Positions 2,424 to 13,358 of a stretch of 27,537 nt of DNA are shown here, one piece after another. Source of the DNA: a virus; IMG/VR virus record IMGVR_UViG_3300017727_002768, positions 1 through 27,537 of that record; one strand, 5' to 3'. The translations under genes and the position numbers were made by a program. Within the stretch, counting starts at the first letter, position 1; each line of letters begins with the position of its first letter. The notes beneath the pieces are model-generated. The model saw only the letters and a list, made by a program, of their open reading frames with translations, had not been told where the DNA came from and made no database searches.

Positions 2424-5216
2424 ATGGCAACATTAGTATCACCTGGTGTTAGTATTAGTGTAACAGACGAATCGTTTTACGCGGCGGCTGGTGCTGGTAC
2501 AGTTCCATTGATAATCATTGCGTCTGCTCAAGATAAGAGTAGTCCAGATGGTTCAGGAACTGCGGCATACACTTCTAAGGCTAATGCAGGAAAATTACAA
2601 CTAATTACAAGTCAACGTGAATTACTACAACAATTTGGAAATCCTTTATTTTACAAATCAGGTAGTAATCAGTTGCATGGTTATGATCTCAATGAATACG
2701 GCTTACTAGCGGCCCACTCATTCTTAGGTTTGGCAAACAGAGCATACGTTCTGAGAGCAGACATTGATTTAGGTCAACTAAGTGCTTCATCTAGTGCACC
2801 ATCAGGTGCTATTGCAGATGGCAGTTACTGGTTAGACACAGCAAGTTCAGTTTATGGACTTAGAGAATATAGTGCGAGTGCCGGCTGGGTTAAAAAAGAC
2901 GTATCCGTTGCAGACGCAATCAATATCAATTCTTCAACAGGCGGACCTAAAAGAGCATTTGGTCTTAACGGCGACTATGCCGTTGTGGCAAATACAAATG
3001 CTGGTGGAACAGCCGCAAATGTTAAGTATTACGAAAAATACAGTGATGACTGGTACCTAGTAGGTAGCACAAGTTGGGCATCTGCAACAAGCAGTGACTT
3101 CCAATGGGCTACTCATACTACAGTTCCAGCACTTAAGAGCGATGGAGTTAGTTCATTAGCCGCTGGAGACCTTTTCATTCAAACAAGTACACCTAACTCA
3201 GGTGCTGACTATAAAGCAAAACTTTACAGTTCTTCAACAAAAGCATTTACTACAGTGAGTGCTCCATTCTATGCAAATAGCGATGCCGCATACGCAGGCA
3301 TTGGTACTGCAAATGTTAGTGTTGGAAACTTAGTTGGATTGTTTGACAATGTAGATCCAGAAGAAGCAACTATTGTGTTGAAAAGACACAATGGTAATAC
3401 ATCAGTAGTTGCTACTGGTGGAACAATAGCAAACTTAGACGTTTCAGGCAACTCAAGTTTTGACATAGTATATGGCGGAACAACAGTTGTAGTAACTTTA
3501 GCGGCTACCATTTCAGGTACAGCCTCTACTTCAACGGCAGAAGACGCCGTTTTTGATATTAACTCAGCATTAGCGGGTGCATCAATAACAAAAGTTACAG
3601 CAAGTTTAGGTAGTTCTAACAATGTCGTATTAACATCAAGCGATGGTAGAGACATAGTATTACAAAGTAACCACGCAGACTTTGGACCAAGTTCAGTAGG
3701 ATTTGGATCTCAGGCAGTTACAGCAGGTATTACATACTCTAACTTTGCAGATTTAAGTTACGAAGCAAGTAAAACATCTATCACAGGTACTCTTGCAGAA
3801 GGTACTTACTGGTATAATGCCTCAGTGGCAGTAGCAAACGTAGACATCTTAGAAAATGACGCATCAAGTGGATGGCAGTCATTAACTAAAGACTTAAACG
3901 TAGCCGCTTCTGCTCCTACAACTCAATCAGACGGAACTGCTCTAGTGGCAGGTGATGTTTGGTTAGACTCAGACGATACTGAAAACTTCCCTAAACTTTA
4001 TAAGTGGAGTGGAACAGCCTGGGCCGCAGTTGATGGTACAGACCAAGTAACAGCAGAAGGTATAATTTATGCAGACTTCAGACAAACTAAAACTTCAAGT
4101 TTAGATGCTGATGCTCCTGCACAAACAGCCTACCCTGCAGGTATGCTAGGATGGAACAAACGTGCTTCAGCAGGTAACGTTAAAGAGTATAAAATTAATT
4201 ATACTCCTGCTTCAACCAACATTGGTAATGTTTGGGTTGACGCAAGTGGAAACAATACAGCAGGTAAAATGTTTGGATTAAGAAAAGCAGTTCACAACTT
4301 GGTTAAAACTAAGATGCAAGCCGCTATTGTATCTAATGATGACATTAGAGCAGAGACAAATTCATTTAACTTAATTGCCGCTCCTGGATTCCCAGAAATG
4401 CTAGACGAAATGGTTGCATTAAGCACAGACAGAAGAAATACTGCTTTTGTTATTGCTGATACTCCATTCAGACTTAAAGCAGACGCAACAAGCACTAAGA
4501 ATTGGGCAACAAACGCCAACAATGCTAGTGAGAACGGTGAAGATGGATTAGTTTCAAGTTCACCTTATGCTGGTGTTTACTATCCAAGTGCTTTAACAAC
4601 AAACTTAGATGGAACTAACGTAGTTGTTCCTTCAAGTCATGTTGCTTTAAGAACATTTGCATTTAATGACCAGGTTGCTTTCCCTTGGTTTGCTCCAGCA
4701 GGATTCCAACGAGGTCTTGTACAAAACGCAACTTCAGTAGGATATGTTAATCCGACCGATGGTGAATATGTATCAGTTACATTGAACGAAGGTCAGAGAG
4801 ACACATTGTACTCAAACAAAATTAACCCTATTGCACAATTTCCTGGAAGAGGACTTGCAGTCTTTGGACAGAAAACATTGAATCCAAATTCAAGTGCATT
4901 AGACAGAGTTAATGTTGCAAGATTGTTAGTTTACATAAGAGAACAACTTGACGATGCAGTTAAGCCTTTCTTGTTTGAACCAAACGATGAATTGACAAGA
5001 GCAAATGCAAAATCTGTTGTTGATGGATTCTTAAGTCAGTTAGTTATTCAAAGAGGTTTATTCGACTTTGTAACTGTTTGTGACGGAACAAACAATACAG
5101 CGGCTCGAATTGATAGAAACGAACTTTACATTGACATTGCTATACAGCCAGTCAAAGCAGTAGAGTTTATCTACATACCAATTAGAATTCAAAACACTTT
5201 GGGTTCAACAGCATAA
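2424..5216 (+). CDS. 18: Contractile tail sheath protein (gp18)
   Basis: At 930 residues this is well above T4 gp18 (659). The N-terminus ('LVSPGVSISVTD', then 'LLAAHSFLGLANRAYVLRAD' at about 94-113) and the C-terminal part ('VFGQKTLNP', 'LFEPNDELT', the 'IDIAIQPVKAVEFIYIPI' strand) are typical of the sheath fold. Between about residues 120 and 545 lies an Ala/Ser/Thr/Gly-rich insertion. It carries four versions of a short motif resembling 'DGxYWLDT...LY..s..GW' (near 131-160, 246-278, 458-490 and 508-538) and a beta-rich stretch near 311-437. The insertion probably forms surface-exposed decoration domains on the sheath exterior. Expression is late (GATAAATA plus AAGGAG). A rho-independent terminator follows directly, so the sheath is its own transcription unit, as expected for a very abundant protein. 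Confidence 0.93.
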   Translation: MATLVSPGVSISVTDESFYAAAGAGTVPLIIIASAQDKSSPDGSGTAAYTSKANAGKLQLITSQRELLQQFGNPLFYKSGSNQLHGYDLNEYGLLAAHSFLGLANRAYVLRADIDLGQLSASSSAPSGAIADGSYWLDTASSVYGLREYSASAGWVKKDVSVADAININSSTGGPKRAFGLNGDYAVVANTNAGGTAANVKYYEKYSDDWYLVGSTSWASATSSDFQWATHTTVPALKSDGVSSLAAGDLFIQTSTPNSGADYKAKLYSSSTKAFTTVSAPFYANSDAAYAGIGTANVSVGNLVGLFDNVDPEEATIVLKRHNGNTSVVATGGTIANLDVSGNSSFDIVYGGTTVVVTLAATISGTASTSTAEDAVFDINSALAGASITKVTASLGSSNNVVLTSSDGRDIVLQSNHADFGPSSVGFGSQAVTAGITYSNFADLSYEASKTSITGTLAEGTYWYNASVAVANVDILENDASSGWQSLTKDLNVAASAPTTQSDGTALVAGDVWLDSDDTENFPKLYKWSGTAWAAVDGTDQVTAEGIIYADFRQTKTSSLDADAPAQTAYPAGMLGWNKRASAGNVKEYKINYTPASTNIGNVWVDASGNNTAGKMFGLRKAVHNLVKTKMQAAIVSNDDIRAETNSFNLIAAPGFPEMLDEMVALSTDRRNTAFVIADTPFRLKADATSTKNWATNANNASENGEDGLVSSSPYAGVYYPSALTTNLDGTNVVVPSSHVALRTFAFNDQVAFPWFAPAGFQRGLVQNATSVGYVNPTDGEYVSVTLNEGQRDTLYSNKINPIAQFPGRGLAVFGQKTLNPNSSALDRVNVARLLVYIREQLDDAVKPFLFEPNDELTRANAKSVVDGFLSQLVIQRGLFDFVTVCDGTNNTAARIDRNELYIDIAIQPVKAVEFIYIPIRIQNTLGSTA

Positions 5217-7282: not shown

Positions 7283-7716
7283 TGAGTGAAAGTTTATATA
7301 CAACATTTGGTAATGAAATAAGTTACGAAATCCGTAGAGATAAACTTGTTAAGTTTTTAGAAAACAACACAATAAACTTTCCATTACCAGAAGCAAGTTT
7401 AGAAATACTAGTCAACATGTTGGCTGTAGATGATAGAGGCATATCAGCAGACAAACTAGACATAGTGTTTAACAGATTAACCAGCATAGGTTTTGCAAAG
7501 TCAAATGCAAAAGCATTAGCAGTAGCACTTATTAAAGTTGCTGATGCACAAGGCGTACACCCAATATCATATTTTGAAATTAATGAAGATTCAATTAAGT
7601 TAGCAGAAAATACTTATAAAGCAATTAATGAATTAAGACCAGCAGGAAATCAAATTGGTCTTAAGGTTACTACAAAGAACAATCAATCAAAAATAGCAAA
7701 TAAGATTCGACCATAG
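7282..7716 (+). CDS. Unknown phage protein in tail/head gene cluster
   Basis: The 144-residue protein is not recognised. It is predicted mainly alpha-helical, with a hydrophobic middle ('LEILVNMLAVDD', 'LAVALIKVADAQG') and a basic, polar C-terminus. The start codon overlaps the preceding stop by one base (TAATG), so the two are probably translationally coupled, and gp4 follows after 9 nt. Its position between a tube-like protein and the head-completion nuclease suggests a small virion or assembly role. No signal peptide or membrane segment is seen. Confidence 0.75.
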   Translation: MSESLYTTFGNEISYEIRRDKLVKFLENNTINFPLPEASLEILVNMLAVDDRGISADKLDIVFNRLTSIGFAKSNAKALAVALIKVADAQGVHPISYFEINEDSIKLAENTYKAINELRPAGNQIGLKVTTKNNQSKIANKIRP

Positions 7717-7725
7717 GTGTAACAC

Positions 7726-8178
7726 ATGTCTAGTAAATATTCACAAGGCAAATACTCCGTACAAAATCCAGAAAAGTTCGTAGGTACACAGCAACCTTTT
7801 GCTCGTAGTAGTTGGGAGATGGCGTTTATGAGGTTCTGTGACAGCCATCCTAACATTACCAAGTGGGCAAGTGAAAACGTAAAAATTCCTTATAGGCATC
7901 CTTTTACAGGTAAAATTGCAAACTATGTTCCTGACTTTATGGTACAGTATCAAGACAAAACAGGAAAGACACGAGTTGATTTAATTGAAATCAAACCTAA
8001 AGCACAAACACTACAAGAAAAAGCAAGAGATAAGTATGACAAAATGTCAATACAAGTGAATGCTGTTAAGTGGGAAGCCGCTCAAGCCTGGTGCAAGGCA
8101 AAAGGTTTACACTTTAAAGTTATTACGGAAGACCAGATTTTCCGGAAACAAAATGGTAGAAAAACCAAACGTATCTAA
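7726..8178 (+). CDS. 4: Head completion nuclease (gp4/gp50-like)
   Basis: The 150-residue length matches T4 gp4. The protein has a TnsA/restriction-like nuclease layout: E31 in 'SSWEMAFMRFCD', D70 in 'YVPDFMVQY' and E88-x-K90 in 'VDLIEIKPK'. The conserved N-terminus contains 'KYSQGKYSVQNPEKFVG'. In T4, gp4 is needed to finish DNA-filled heads before tail joining; the nuclease activity probably trims packaged DNA ends. The gene sits at the end of the tail block. Its TAA stop (8176-8178) overlaps the late promoter of the following diiron gene by two bases. Confidence 0.9.
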   Translation: MSSKYSQGKYSVQNPEKFVGTQQPFARSSWEMAFMRFCDSHPNITKWASENVKIPYRHPFTGKIANYVPDFMVQYQDKTGKTRVDLIEIKPKAQTLQEKARDKYDKMSIQVNAVKWEAAQAWCKAKGLHFKVITEDQIFRKQNGRKTKRI

Positions 8179-8184
8179 TAAATA
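8177..8184 (+). promoter_or_regulatory. T4-type late promoter 6 nt before start codon
   Basis: AATAAATA (7 of 8 to consensus) ends 6 nt before ATG 8191. It overlaps the gp4 stop codon. No Shine-Dalgarno sequence lies between it and the ATG, so a transcript from here would have about one untranslated base. Confidence 0.7.
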
Positions 8185-8190
8185 TTTAAT

Positions 8191-9267
8191 ATGAAAATAG
8201 AATATACAAATACTCCAAGGGACGTAGTCGAGTTTGACGATGATGTTCCGGCTAATCTAGATCCTACTGATGTAGTAGAGATTTTTCAAACACCTTTAAC
8301 TGGATCTTTTAATTGGGATTATAGAGTACAAGATAATAGAATTAAAAAATTATATGAGTTAGGCAAACAATTAAATTGGAATGTAGAAGTCGATGTTGAC
8401 TGGACTCCAAAATTTACTAGCATTAGTGATGAAGAATTCGATTTTGAAAACACTCAATGGGATAATCATAAAACATTTAAAGCATTTGATAAAGAAACAA
8501 GATTAGAATTTTTTAAAGATTTAAACAGTTGGGGAACAAGTCAATTCTTACATGGTGAGCAAGGAGCATTGTTGGTAGCATCACAGTTAGCCAGTTGTGC
8601 CCCAACCTATAATGCAAAATTATATGCCGCCAGTCAAACTTTTGATGAAGCAAGACATGTAGAAGCATTCAACAAATATTTACAGCAAAGATTAAAACGT
8701 AGTTGGCCCATAGGTAGAGCATTAAAAGGTTTGCTAGATAAAATTTTAACAGACCCTAGGTGGGATTTAAAATTTATTGGCATGCAAGTAGTAATAGAAG
8801 GATTGGCATTAGCCGCCTTTAACGCCGCCAAGAATGCAACGAACGATCCTGTGTATGAACAAATGCTTGAATACATAATCAGGGACGAAGCAAGACATGT
8901 TACATTTGGTATAAACTATTTAACAGACTTTGTAACTACTTTAACTGAAGAAGAAGTATTGGATAGAGCACAGTTTGCCTTAGAAGCCTGTACAGTAAGT
9001 AGAAACAGATTAAGAGCATATGATGTTTGGGAAAAATATGGTATGGATATAGAATACACTGAAGCATATCAAAAAGAACACATATTCCAAACACAATTTC
9101 AAGATGTATTGTTTAGTAGAATAATGCCTAATCTTAAAAAGATAGGTTTGCTACATGAAGATTTAGTACCTGAATATGAAAAATTAGGTGTTATGGGATT
9201 TGCAGAAGGCGATAGTGATTATGAAACTAGTTGGGAAGAACTTTCCAAGCCTTTAAAGAGTGCATAA
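8191..9267 (+). CDS. Ferritin-like diiron oxygenase, first of tandem pair
   Basis: The 358-residue soluble helical protein shows a full set of six carboxylate-bridged diiron ligands. E123 is in 'LHGEQGALL', E153 and H156 in 'FDEARHVEAF', E203 in 'VVIEGLALAAF', and E233 and H236 in 'RDEARHVTFG'. The E, ExxH, E, ExxH order is that of ribonucleotide reductase R2, R2-like oxidases, AurF-type N-oxygenases and bacterial multicomponent monooxygenases. The N-terminal 'RIKKLYELGKQLNW...DVDW' is also a feature of R2/AurF-like marine proteins. It is too divergent to name the substrate, and no reductase or ferredoxin partner is encoded nearby. The start has no ribosome site and sits 6 nt after a late promoter. 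A paralogue follows directly. Confidence 0.8.
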   Translation: MKIEYTNTPRDVVEFDDDVPANLDPTDVVEIFQTPLTGSFNWDYRVQDNRIKKLYELGKQLNWNVEVDVDWTPKFTSISDEEFDFENTQWDNHKTFKAFDKETRLEFFKDLNSWGTSQFLHGEQGALLVASQLASCAPTYNAKLYAASQTFDEARHVEAFNKYLQQRLKRSWPIGRALKGLLDKILTDPRWDLKFIGMQVVIEGLALAAFNAAKNATNDPVYEQMLEYIIRDEARHVTFGINYLTDFVTTLTEEEVLDRAQFALEACTVSRNRLRAYDVWEKYGMDIEYTEAYQKEHIFQTQFQDVLFSRIMPNLKKIGLLHEDLVPEYEKLGVMGFAEGDSDYETSWEELSKPLKSA

Positions 9268-9274
9268 ACTTTCA

Positions 9275-9282
9275 GATAAATA
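9275..9282 (+). promoter_or_regulatory. T4-type late promoter 6 nt before GTG start
   Basis: GATAAATA ends 6 nt before GTG 9289. No Shine-Dalgarno sequence is visible. The element separates the two diiron genes, giving the second copy its own late transcript. Confidence 0.7.
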
Positions 9283-9288
9283 GTCTTT

Positions 9289-10407
9289 GTGTACAAAGTA
9301 ATTAAATTAAACAAAGACGCATACTCAAGTGAGCTCGTTGAAAAAGAACATAGTTTTGATGTCATTGCGGAAGAATTTCCTTTAGAAGTAACTGGGCAAT
9401 GGAACTGGGACTACTCGCATATTAATGATAAGATAAATTATATCTATCAGTTAGGTAAAGAACAAGCCTGGGACGTTGAAAAAGACATAGATTGGAATTC
9501 TGAAACTACAGCATACAATGAGAGTTCTTCACCGTTTGGCATTCCTGCTGTACATAGATTTTCACAATTCAAACCATTTCAAAAGTTAACCACAGTTAAA
9601 CGTAAACAATTTTTACATGACATAGATGGATTTGTTGTAAGTCAACTTTTACATGGAGAACAAGGAGCATTTTTAGTTGCTTCTCAACTTTGTTCAACAC
9701 TTCCTACTTTAAATTCTAGATTGTATGCTAGTTCACAAACTTTTGATGAAGCAAGACATGTGGAAGCATTCACAAAGTATTTGTCTGTAAGACATAAAGG
9801 TACTATATGGCCCTTTAATAATGATTTTAAAGAACTTATAACTAGAACACTACAAGACAAACGTTGGGATATGAAATTTGTATGTATGCAAGGCATTATA
9901 GAATACTATGCAACTTCTGTTTTTGTTAGTTTAAGAAACAATACAAAGGACACTATGTTTAAAGACATGCTTAAATTAATTATTAGAGATGAAACAAGAC
10001 ATGTTGCATTTGGTAGAAACTTTTTAATTGATTATTACAAAACTTTAAGCGATGAAGAGTTAGATGGTCGAGCAGTATTCATGGCAGAATGTTTGATTCA
10101 ACTACTAAATGATGATTACCTGTATCATGCACATCTATTATATGAGAAGCATGGATTTGATCCTGAAGAAACTATTGCATTCATTAAAGAAACAGACAAT
10201 GCTATTATGAAAAAGAAGAGAAAAGAATTTTTAGGCATTGACTTTGATCCTAAAGATGATAATTTAGAAAACTTTCAAATGACAGACAGATTTACACTTA
10301 TGGTTAAATCAGTTGCTATGTTTAATGATTTTAAATTAATTAGGCCCAGTAATATACCTATGCTAGAAGAAGCATTCAAACTAAATATTAGTGAGATATT
10401 ACAATGA
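9289..10407 (+). CDS. Ferritin-like diiron oxygenase, second of tandem pair
   Basis: The 372-residue paralogue of the preceding gene keeps all six predicted iron ligands: E124 ('LHGEQGAFL'), E154 and H157 ('FDEARHVEAF'), E205 ('GIIEYYATSVF') and E235 and H238 ('RDETRHVAFG'). Similarity is highest around the metal-binding helices; the N-terminus and the C-terminal 120 residues differ strongly, so this is an old duplication or two separate acquisitions. The third helix replaces the small residues of copy 1 (GLALAAF) with YYATSVF, which would change the substrate pocket. GTG is the only sensible start: it lies 6 nt after a late promoter and the alignment with copy 1 begins there. The end overlaps a 49-codon gene (ATGA). 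The two could form a heterodimer or act on different substrates; both are inference. Confidence 0.8.
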   Translation: MYKVIKLNKDAYSSELVEKEHSFDVIAEEFPLEVTGQWNWDYSHINDKINYIYQLGKEQAWDVEKDIDWNSETTAYNESSSPFGIPAVHRFSQFKPFQKLTTVKRKQFLHDIDGFVVSQLLHGEQGAFLVASQLCSTLPTLNSRLYASSQTFDEARHVEAFTKYLSVRHKGTIWPFNNDFKELITRTLQDKRWDMKFVCMQGIIEYYATSVFVSLRNNTKDTMFKDMLKLIIRDETRHVAFGRNFLIDYYKTLSDEELDGRAVFMAECLIQLLNDDYLYHAHLLYEKHGFDPEETIAFIKETDNAIMKKKRKEFLGIDFDPKDDNLENFQMTDRFTLMVKSVAMFNDFKLIRPSNIPMLEEAFKLNISEILQ

Positions 10408-10553
10408 CAATAGCAGAAATAATAGAATTTAAAACACCAAAAAAGGTTTATGACAAGCCACAAGACTATGTTGATGCAAGAAATCATAGATTTGACCAAA
10501 TGTTTGGGCATCCTACACGCAAATTAAAGAAAAAACGTAAGTCTAGGAAATAA
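10404..10553 (+). CDS. Small basic protein, 49 residues
   Basis: The ATG overlaps the stop of the second diiron gene (ATGA), so translation is probably coupled. The product starts 'MTIAEIIEFKTPKKVYD', contains 'YVDARNHRFDQMFG', and ends in a strongly basic tail, 'RKLKKKRKSRK', that could bind nucleic acid. It is unrecognised. The stop codon TAA (10551-10553) lies inside the late promoter of gp16. It fills the gap between the diiron gene and gp16 exactly, and the coupled overlap supports a real gene. Confidence 0.7.
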   Translation: MTIAEIIEFKTPKKVYDKPQDYVDARNHRFDQMFGHPTRKLKKKRKSRK

Positions 10554-11062: not shown

Positions 11063-12748
11063 ATGAAGACCCCAGTAGATTTTTTAATCTTTACAGGCAG
11101 AGCAAACGATATTGAAAGTTTATCTCTTCATCCGGGTGATAAAACATACGGAAACGTATTTCAACCTTTAATTTCAACCACAACTAGAACACTAGGTGCT
11201 TACAAAGTAGCCTATCACTGCAGATTGCAAGGATTTTCTGTACAAGTTGTGGATTATTCTAAATTTTTATCAACAGAACAGTTCATTAGCATAATAGATA
11301 AGTTTGTAGGACCTAATACATTAGCAGTTGGTACTAGTACAACATGGTTACACCAACCTTTATCTTCAAGAAAGACTTTAAATATGGTAGGTCAATATGG
11401 ATTTGAAGCGGCACAATGGTTACCTGTGGAAGATTTCGAAACTGAAACAAAAATTACAGAGCATATAAAGAGCATTAGTCCAGAATGTAAAGTTATTGTA
11501 GGAGGTGCGATAGTAAACCAAGACAGTTTGAACAATCCAAACATAGATATTGTTGCTAGTGGGTATGGAGAAGTTACTGTTCCTGATATTTTAATGTCTA
11601 TTAAAAACAATACTGAAATAAGACAATATTATGCAGACCCGCACAGTCAACATGAGATAGCAACATCAACAATGACTTGGTGTCCTGAAGATTTAGCAAC
11701 AGAAACTGAAGCATTGCCTTTAGAAATTGCTAGAGGTTGTATATTTCATTGCAGTTTCTGTAGTTTTAGATTGTTAGGTAAAGAAAAAGGTAGTTATGTA
11801 AGAGGTAAAGACTTAATACGAGATGAACTTATACGCAATTATGAAAATTTTGGCACAACAAGGTATTGGATAAGTGATGATACCTTTAATGATGACAGTG
11901 ATAGACTACAAGAGTTTGCAGATGTAGTTCAATCATTGCCTTTTAAAATTACATTGAGTGCTTTTATACGATTAGATTTAGTAATGTTAAAAAAACAAGA
12001 ACAATTATTAAAAGATTGTGGGTTAGTGTTTGCACATTGTGGTATAGAAACACTAAACAGCGAAAGTGCTAAAGATATTGGCAAAGGATTAAATCCTATG
12101 ATGTTAATGGATTGGTTAAGAGATATAAAACAAAATGTTTGGAAAGATGTCTTTGTACACTCAAATTTTATTCTAGGTCTACCTAGCGATTCTAAAAGTA
12201 CTTTAAGAGAAAATTTAAGATTTTTAAAGAGCGATGATAATCCTTTGGATAGTTTTGTTGTAAGTCCGTTGTATTTGCCTAAGCAAGGCACTAAGTCTAG
12301 CAATGAAGAAAGTAAATTTACAAATGATCCTGAAAGTTTTGGCATGGAGATTATTCCTTGGAGCGATGATTATCTAAAATATGTTGCAGAAGGTAATACT
12401 TTTCAAAATTATAGAAACAAACATGGTATTGTAAACGAAGAAATGTTTAGAACTAGACAAAGATTTGCATCAACAATGGTACAACACAAAAACGGATACA
12501 AATTTATATTTCATGGACAGTTTAGAGCATGGGGACTAGACGGATGTGATTTACATCCTGATGAAATATTAGAATTGGTTAAAGATAAAAAGTTTACTTG
12601 GTTGGACAGAAACAAGATAGAGAAGAAAAACTTTGATAGTTACACAGATAGATTAATGTCTATAGAAAAACATACAAGTTTTGTTAAATCACAATTAGTT
12701 GATGCTGAGAATTTAAAAAGAGTGTCTATTGCCAGGGAATTAGTTTAA
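11063..12748 (+). CDS. B12-binding-like radical SAM protein
   Basis: The 561-residue protein has the radical SAM iron-sulfur motif CxxxCxxC at C226, C230 and C233 ('ARGCIFHCSFC'). An N-terminal Rossmann-like region (about 40-180) ends in 'VIVGGAIVNQ' and 'VASGYGEVTVPDIL', like the cobalamin-binding half of B12-dependent radical SAM enzymes. A TIM-barrel part contains 'YWISDDTFND' and 'FAHCGIETLNSESAKDIGKG', followed by 'NFILGLPSDSKSTLRENLRFL'. Such enzymes cut SAM to make a radical and perform methylations or rearrangements. No DxHxxG cobalamin signature is visible, so B12 binding is uncertain. The ATG follows the gp16 stop directly, with AAAGGGG as the likely ribosome site. Its 3' end overlaps the convergent minus-strand gene by 23 nt. 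The substrate is unknown. Confidence 0.87.
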   Translation: MKTPVDFLIFTGRANDIESLSLHPGDKTYGNVFQPLISTTTRTLGAYKVAYHCRLQGFSVQVVDYSKFLSTEQFISIIDKFVGPNTLAVGTSTTWLHQPLSSRKTLNMVGQYGFEAAQWLPVEDFETETKITEHIKSISPECKVIVGGAIVNQDSLNNPNIDIVASGYGEVTVPDILMSIKNNTEIRQYYADPHSQHEIATSTMTWCPEDLATETEALPLEIARGCIFHCSFCSFRLLGKEKGSYVRGKDLIRDELIRNYENFGTTRYWISDDTFNDDSDRLQEFADVVQSLPFKITLSAFIRLDLVMLKKQEQLLKDCGLVFAHCGIETLNSESAKDIGKGLNPMMLMDWLRDIKQNVWKDVFVHSNFILGLPSDSKSTLRENLRFLKSDDNPLDSFVVSPLYLPKQGTKSSNEESKFTNDPESFGMEIIPWSDDYLKYVAEGNTFQNYRNKHGIVNEEMFRTRQRFASTMVQHKNGYKFIFHGQFRAWGLDGCDLHPDEILELVKDKKFTWLDRNKIEKKNFDSYTDRLMSIEKHTSFVKSQLVDAENLKRVSIARELV

Positions 12749-13358
12749 AACGTTCTTCAGGTAAGTTTAAAAATTTAGTTGTCCAAGCACTTTGACCTAC
12801 AAAGTCTAAATGTTGCCATTCATCTTTCCGTGATATTTTAGTCTTTGCTACATCATTCCAATCGTTAGTATCTATTATACCTTGTATTAACTCTTTCTTT
12901 TCTAGCACTGAATCCAAATTATGACTATCCCATTCATAATGAAATAATTCCATAACATTCCTTTGTTCATCTACATAATCTATACTAATATCTATTCCCC
13001 ATTTAGGTTTAAGTTGAGTCATTTTGTATAATAAGTTGTTTCCAGGTGTCCAATGGTACAACTGTTCTAATGCATATCCGTGATATCCTTTTCTTTCATA
13101 TAAATCTGAATGATTAATGTGAGCACCAGTTGAATTACCACAAGGCAAATACCAGTCTTGTTTGATACATCTTTTATAACGCATGTATTGTGGATCACCT
13201 AGGTTACATTGTGCATATTCTTGTTCTAATTCACATAGGTCATAACCACTTTGGTCGAATCTATCGAGTTTATTTGGTCGAGGACACACCATATTTTCTA
13301 TGGCAACACCCCAGGTACCCATATGGTTGAAATTGTTACTGCTTCTTTTAAACTGCAT
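12726..13358 (-). CDS. Unknown protein, only minus-strand gene in window
   Basis: The 210-residue product is rich in Trp, Tyr, His and Cys, with an ordered, protein-like sequence ('MGTWGVAIENMVCP', 'WGIDISIDYVDEQRNVMELFHYEWDSHN', 'WQHLDFVGQSAWTTKFLNLPEERF'). This is unlike a random antisense frame, and no competing plus-strand gene exists here. The family is not recognised. Five Cys occur in the first 75 residues but without a clear CxxC pair. A CATAAATA late promoter on the minus strand (13374 to 13367) ends 8 nt before the ATG and there is no ribosome site, so its mRNA would be nearly leaderless. It converges on the radical SAM gene with a 23-nt tail-to-tail overlap. Confidence 0.75.
   Translation of the reverse strand: MQFKRSSNNFNHMGTWGVAIENMVCPRPNKLDRFDQSGYDLCELEQEYAQCNLGDPQYMRYKRCIKQDWYLPCGNSTGAHINHSDLYERKGYHGYALEQLYHWTPGNNLLYKMTQLKPKWGIDISIDYVDEQRNVMELFHYEWDSHNLDSVLEKKELIQGIIDTNDWNDVAKTKISRKDEWQHLDFVGQSAWTTKFLNLPEERFKLIPWQ

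Follow-up and report, generated by a model that had tools for sequence, protein, structure and literature searches.

What two adjacent oxygenase-like genes are doing among the virion genes of a phage is the question raised by this locus. The window analysed here, comprising the whole virus record IMGVR_UViG_3300017727_002768 (27,537 bases), is a fragment of a phage genome. It encodes a T4-like tail sheath protein and a gp4-like head-closure protein, as well as what we take, from the sequence, to be terminase-like, RecA-like and UvsW-like genes. ORF A (positions 8191–9267, + strand) is a conserved phage orthologue encoding a 358-aa R2lox/AurF-like dimetal-carboxylate oxygenase, and ORF B (positions 9289–10407, + strand) encodes a divergent paralogue of 372 aa with a GTG start and all of the ligands retained. 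Both ORFs are intact and adjacent, at the positions initially annotated, and lie between the gp4-like head-closure gene and o10562, a conserved late gene; around them in the window are virion and packaging genes, and lipid genes are not among their immediate neighbours. The two products share 45% identity across 276 aa (E = 1e-75), and this identity, together with the six ligands and the predicted fold, bears out the initial annotation of the pair as tandem paralogous diiron-type oxygenases.

A small 49-aa ORF (MTIAEIIEFKTPKKVYDKPQDYVDARNHRFDQMFGHPTRKLKKKRKSRK; positions 10404–10553, + strand) lies directly after A in relatives. The same peptide follows A in locus L008, and in the window B is inserted between A and this ORF. 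Further downstream, positions 11063–12748 (+ strand) encode a radical SAM protein with a B12-binding domain, and a different radical SAM gene directly follows A in L002 (positions 9329–10378), L004, L008, L010 and L080. Among the late genes, positions 12726–13358 carry a conserved ORF that runs the other way (− strand), with 70–86% identity in relatives and no family match.

Each gene of the pair is preceded by its own late-type promoter motif, as originally proposed. The sequence ATAAATA is found at positions 8178–8184 (+ strand) for A and 9276–9282 (+ strand) for B, in both cases 13 nt before the start codon, and no Shine-Dalgarno sequence precedes either gene. T4-type late promoters read TATAAATA, and promoters of this type so placed would give near-leaderless transcripts. 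Within the window the motif occurs 10 times on the + strand and twice on the − strand, and it also begins 12 nt before o10562, terL and o16530, again with no Shine-Dalgarno sequence. Of 65 distinct viral regions upstream of A, 16 have ATAAATA 10–14 nt before the gene; the corresponding figures are 32 of 532 for other viral ORFs and 0.2% for random positions. The regions carrying it include phage groups that have A elsewhere in the genome, and late expression of A and B is predicted from this recurrent arrangement.

Fold, metal ligands and family membership

AlphaFold2 models of the two proteins were obtained with pLDDT values of 81.8 (A) and 73.2 (B, whose C-terminus was poorly predicted). The best fold match of A was R2lox (7qbk, Z 22.1 over 250 aa; 3ee4, Z 21.7), and B aligned with R2lox at Z 19.9 over 242 aa. 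RNR R2 was the next match (Z ~20), AurF and CmlI were also near B, and the acyl-ACP desaturase 1afr stood low in the fold table of B, a rank that speaks neither for nor against a close relationship. The profile searches against AurF and R2lox that the initial annotation had called for matched the pair to both families, weakly and below the cut-offs: Pfam AurF (PF11583) scored 23.9 bits for A and 24.0 for B (gathering cut-off 29.6), and NCBIfam R2lox scored 27.5 and 37 bits for the phage pair (curated cut-off 194). Across the family, AurF was matched by 67 of 68 members, as the top Pfam family, and R2lox by all 68, the phage proteins weakly in each case; cellular relatives passed the PF11583 cut-off with 44–61 bits. 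Aldehyde-deformylating oxygenase, likewise a ferritin-like dimetal enzyme and one that acts on fatty aldehydes, resembles them weakly in sequence along the ExxH helices (profile E 8e-6 for 5uxg), but it is a shorter enzyme and A and B miss its Pfam/TIGR cut-offs.

Six metal ligands, four Glu and two His in the order E, ExxH, E, ExxH, are invariant in all 68 aligned sequences. In A they correspond to Glu123 (positions 8557–8559), the second-ligand ExxH motif with Glu153 and His156 (8647–8658), Glu203 (8797–8799), and the fourth-ligand ExxH motif with Glu233 and His236 (8887–8898), all on the + strand; in B they are E124, E154/H157, E205 and E235/H238. The observation that both genes keep these ligands in the same order is thus confirmed for all six. 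Metal binding and O2 activation are predicted for both proteins from this set, with a dimetal-carboxylate cofactor that would be either Fe/Fe or Mn/Fe.

Hallmark residues of the characterised subfamilies are replaced. The radical-Tyr position, seven residues after the second-ligand Glu, is occupied by Phe (Phe160 in A) in 68/68 sequences. When equivalents of the R2lox cross-link residues were located by counting along the ligand helices, the V72 position (three residues after the first Glu) was Ala126 in A and Ala in 66 of the 67 other sequences, and the Y162 position (five before the third Glu) was Met198 in A and invariantly Met. Four residues before the last ExxH Glu, presumably the place of the additional His ligand of AurF, all 68 sequences have Ile or Val. 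Since the cross-link residues are Ala and Met, the radical Tyr is Phe and the AurF His is Ile or Val, A and B would be expected to work like members of the R2lox/RNR-R2/AurF superfamily while lying outside every characterised subfamily tested. R2lox, a fatty-acid-binding family, provides the best structural match and shares the ligand set and order; it differs in its V72–Y162 ether cross-link, in a sequence identity of 16–20% and in an NCBIfam score far under the cut-off.

The class I RNR beta subunits (NrdB/NrdF) share the fold and the metal ligand pattern, and the initial annotation had found them no obvious fit, with a beta-subunit match and an alpha subunit elsewhere in the genome as its refutation. 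That A and B might be radical-generating beta subunits, perhaps forming a new subclass, would agree with the common fold and with the weak PF00268 match of B (24.6 bits; A, 16.2 bits), but both scores are below the cut-off of 33.6. Some RNR subclasses also lack the radical Tyr. The 27.5-kb record, itself a fragment, contains no RNR large subunit, near the pair or elsewhere. Larger related phage records contain genuine NrdA above cut-off in 7 of 14 cases and NrdB in 7 of 14, encoded separately from A; one of the records with separate Nrd genes is G159 (61.9 kb), whose A is 92% identical, and NrdA in the relatives has its own NrdB. Because of the Phe at the radical-Tyr position and these separate NrdA and NrdB genes, we rejected an RNR beta assignment, in line with the initial annotation, and consider it scarcely credible.

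Distribution of A and the private paralogue B

Peptide-pattern scans of IMG/VR recovered 115 and 135 encoding stretches of the A family, on more than 100 distinct contigs of uncultured marine, T4-like phages, with a single copy per locus in all viral loci examined. A search of 50,697 deposited phage genomes gave no relatives of A or B, and a literature search found no relevant report of phage genes of the AurF, PF11583, ferritin-like or diiron type. At least 577 encoding stretches were recovered from bacteria, with SAR86, Halieaceae and Alcanivorax supplying the nearest, and 141 of 151 SAR86-order genomes carry a homologue, in one to three copies each. The SAR86 homologues show 57–59% similarity to the phage protein. 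In the phylogenetic tree the phage sequences, B included, fall on one side of a branch with support 100/98, apart from the chromosomal homologues. A gene for a cellular-type enzyme is thus kept in phage genomes, as expected of an auxiliary metabolic gene, and its activity in infection is a prediction. A SAR86-like or other gammaproteobacterial host would fit the similarity to the SAR86 homologues.

Other features were considered as indications of the host. The window encodes a 574-aa TonB-dependent-receptor-like protein (positions 23386–25110, + strand; Pfam Plug 5.5e-8), which is unusual inside a phage genome and has relatives in 24 IMG/VR loci at 54–100% identity. Assignment to a SAR86 host through this gene was rejected, as it gave weak matches only, in 5 of 61 genomes, and the window holds no tRNA genes that might serve as a hint. 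SAR86-type genomes (L189, L196, L215, L219 and L221) also have tandem pairs of this oxygenase family, independently of A and B; those in L189, L196, L215 and L219 lie downstream of CobS/CobT-like genes.

The location between the gp4-like head-closure and terminase genes, as well as the late-type promoters, could be taken to indicate that A and B are virion structural or assembly proteins derived from a co-opted ferritin-like scaffold. We judge this very improbable, given that other phages carry the gene at unrelated genome positions and that it has near-universal SAR86 chromosomal homologues with all ligands intact.

B departs from the wide distribution of A. In twelve close-relative loci A is located between gp4 and o10562 and B is absent; A and o10562 are about 155 bp apart in L003, which is overall the closest relative. 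Neither B-specific peptides, nor a B-ranked family scan, nor 16 related records revealed B in other phages, and B so far appears unique to this record. The initial treatment of the two genes as a unit was therefore incomplete: A occurs widely in phages, as a single copy, and has a near-universal counterpart in SAR86, and B is a private, divergent addition. Two origins for B were rejected. Against a frameshifted A, none of the window's frames encodes a convincing A-like C-terminus. Against a SAR86 chromosomal source, the best identity was 48–49% (151 SAR86-order genomes); the tree groups B with the phage clade at the 100/98 branch, although the branch of B is very long and its exact placement unsure. 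B retains 61 of the 82 positions invariant in 67 other sequences, every ligand among them. Its departures include G197C, G204Y, L207T and A209V (numbered as in A), which fall on the third-Glu helix, and an altered C-terminus. This combination points to an unchanged metal chemistry in an altered pocket.

The initial annotation had also drawn attention to a patch of nearly identical DNA in the two genes. The near-identity is real, A and B being identical at 29 of 30 nt over the stretch encoding FDEARHVEAF, but it carries no special meaning: the peptide is (nearly) invariant across phage and cellular relatives, and over these 30 nt A agrees with 128 viral orthologues at 24–30 positions. Elsewhere in the two genes, residues identical in A and B share their codon in 59 of 114 cases, against 60 expected from phage codon usage. 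Synonymous sites are therefore saturated, and the divergence of A and B is old or fast. Gene conversion at the patch was rejected, since codon identity elsewhere equals the expectation and the patch itself gives p ~0.04 before allowing for its having been selected. The near-identity is thus best attributed to a conserved protein sequence combined with codon bias rather than to recent exchange.

Gene neighbourhoods and the candidate substrate

Neighbouring genes, counted in A-carrying loci alone, vary from one phage group to another, as does the position of A in the genome. In two contigs (L088 and L136) a fatty-acid desaturase gene overlaps or abuts A, ending within 6 nt of its start. An alternative oxidase (AOX) gene lies 106–145 nt upstream of A in loci L066–L075, and phages of this group also have a desaturase elsewhere in the genome; in L069, a marine phage contig, the AOX directly upstream of A (positions 7323–7898) scored 230 bits. 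An acyl carrier protein (ACP) is encoded 1.2–1.5 kb downstream of A in 12 loci (L083, positions 3337–3555, and 11 others), with one intervening gene that has no assigned function, and a PAP2-domain protein is encoded 7 nt upstream of A in L046 and L047. Among bacteria, the Streptomyces homologue belongs to a cluster with an AMP-ligase, ACP, a PaaI-thioesterase and an acyl-CoA dehydrogenase, the Rhodococcus homologue adjoins the ferredoxin FdxA, the Alcanivorax homologue lies beside 4HBT thioesterases and a patatin-like gene, and the Halieaceae homologue also lies beside a patatin-like gene. The SAR86 copies nearest to the phage sequences are flanked by alanine racemase and CTP synthase genes, an uninformative context. 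A search for an electron donor found no Fer2 ferredoxin match in 15 related, fragmentary records.

Characterised R2lox has a bound fatty acid (PMC6399176), and alkane monooxygenase activity has been reported for GkR2loxI (PMC10867098). A fatty-acyl substrate is favoured because these precedents coincide with the lipid and redox neighbours in phages and bacteria. We therefore lean, with evenly balanced confidence, towards A and B being soluble helix-bundle enzymes of R2lox/AurF type that would use O2 to oxidise a hydrophobic substrate, which we infer is most likely fatty-acyl. The computed basis comprises homology, fold, ligands, the missing RNR and R2lox hallmark residues, the late motif, the distribution and the lipid and redox neighbours. 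Counting against it are the purely virion and packaging surroundings of the pair in the window, the change of neighbours between phage groups, the gene that separates ACP from A and the negative Fer2 result. Of the directions hinted at initially, that of lipid oxidation gains support from the fatty-acid desaturase, AOX and ACP genes beside phage homologues.

The same neighbours bear on two other readings. A and B could instead oxidise a non-lipid small molecule, such as an arylamine or an amino-acid derivative in the manner of AurF and CmlI, and supply a late-infection metabolite. AurF is the best Pfam family, with cellular members reaching 60.9 bits against the 29.6 cut-off, and both AurF and CmlI lie structurally near B; however, the phage proteins stay under that cut-off, the presumed position of the extra AurF His is Ile or Val throughout the family, and neighbouring genes indicate acyl chains rather than arylamines. 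We regard a non-lipid substrate as unlikely, if still a credible option. Alternatively, the proteins might handle O2 or iron, as an oxidase, a peroxide or iron scavenger or a terminal electron sink, and protect virion assembly without making a product. The AOX linkage in one phage group and the ferritin-like fold would agree with such a role, but the R2lox-type fold and the ACP, desaturase and thioesterase neighbours imply an organic substrate, and we consider it improbable.

According to the favoured fatty-acyl reading, A would be produced late by the phage and would catalyse an O2-driven hydroxylation or desaturation of a fatty-acyl substrate, with electrons drawn from a host ferredoxin or reductase, probably altering host acyl chains or membrane lipids. 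B would be a pocket-remodelled paralogue carrying out the same type of reaction, probably on another substrate or chain position. Marine-phage auxiliary genes for lipid desaturases and terminal oxidases offer a parallel, being phage-borne and engaged in O2-dependent lipid or redox reactions, with AOX and desaturase beside A in some groups, but they belong to protein families other than that of A and B. A bolder and more tentative proposal is that a widespread phage clade of R2lox-like dimetal oxygenases, so far undescribed, acts late in infection to oxidise host acyl-ACP or acyl chains of the membrane as part of a lipid/redox module with desaturase, ACP and AOX, to which B, as a duplicated copy, might add a second substrate specificity.

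The structure of R2lox-type enzymes is well studied, but their biological substrates are largely open, apart from a single report on alkanes (PMC10867098). A genetic handle on these substrates comes from a phage clade of the enzyme that recurs with acyl-lipid genes, together with a near-universal copy in the SAR86 order, and A and B form a ready-made comparison between two pockets that share one type of metal site. If the favoured reading is true, phages of uncultured marine bacteria would remodel host acyl chains with soluble oxygenases so far not seen among isolated phages.
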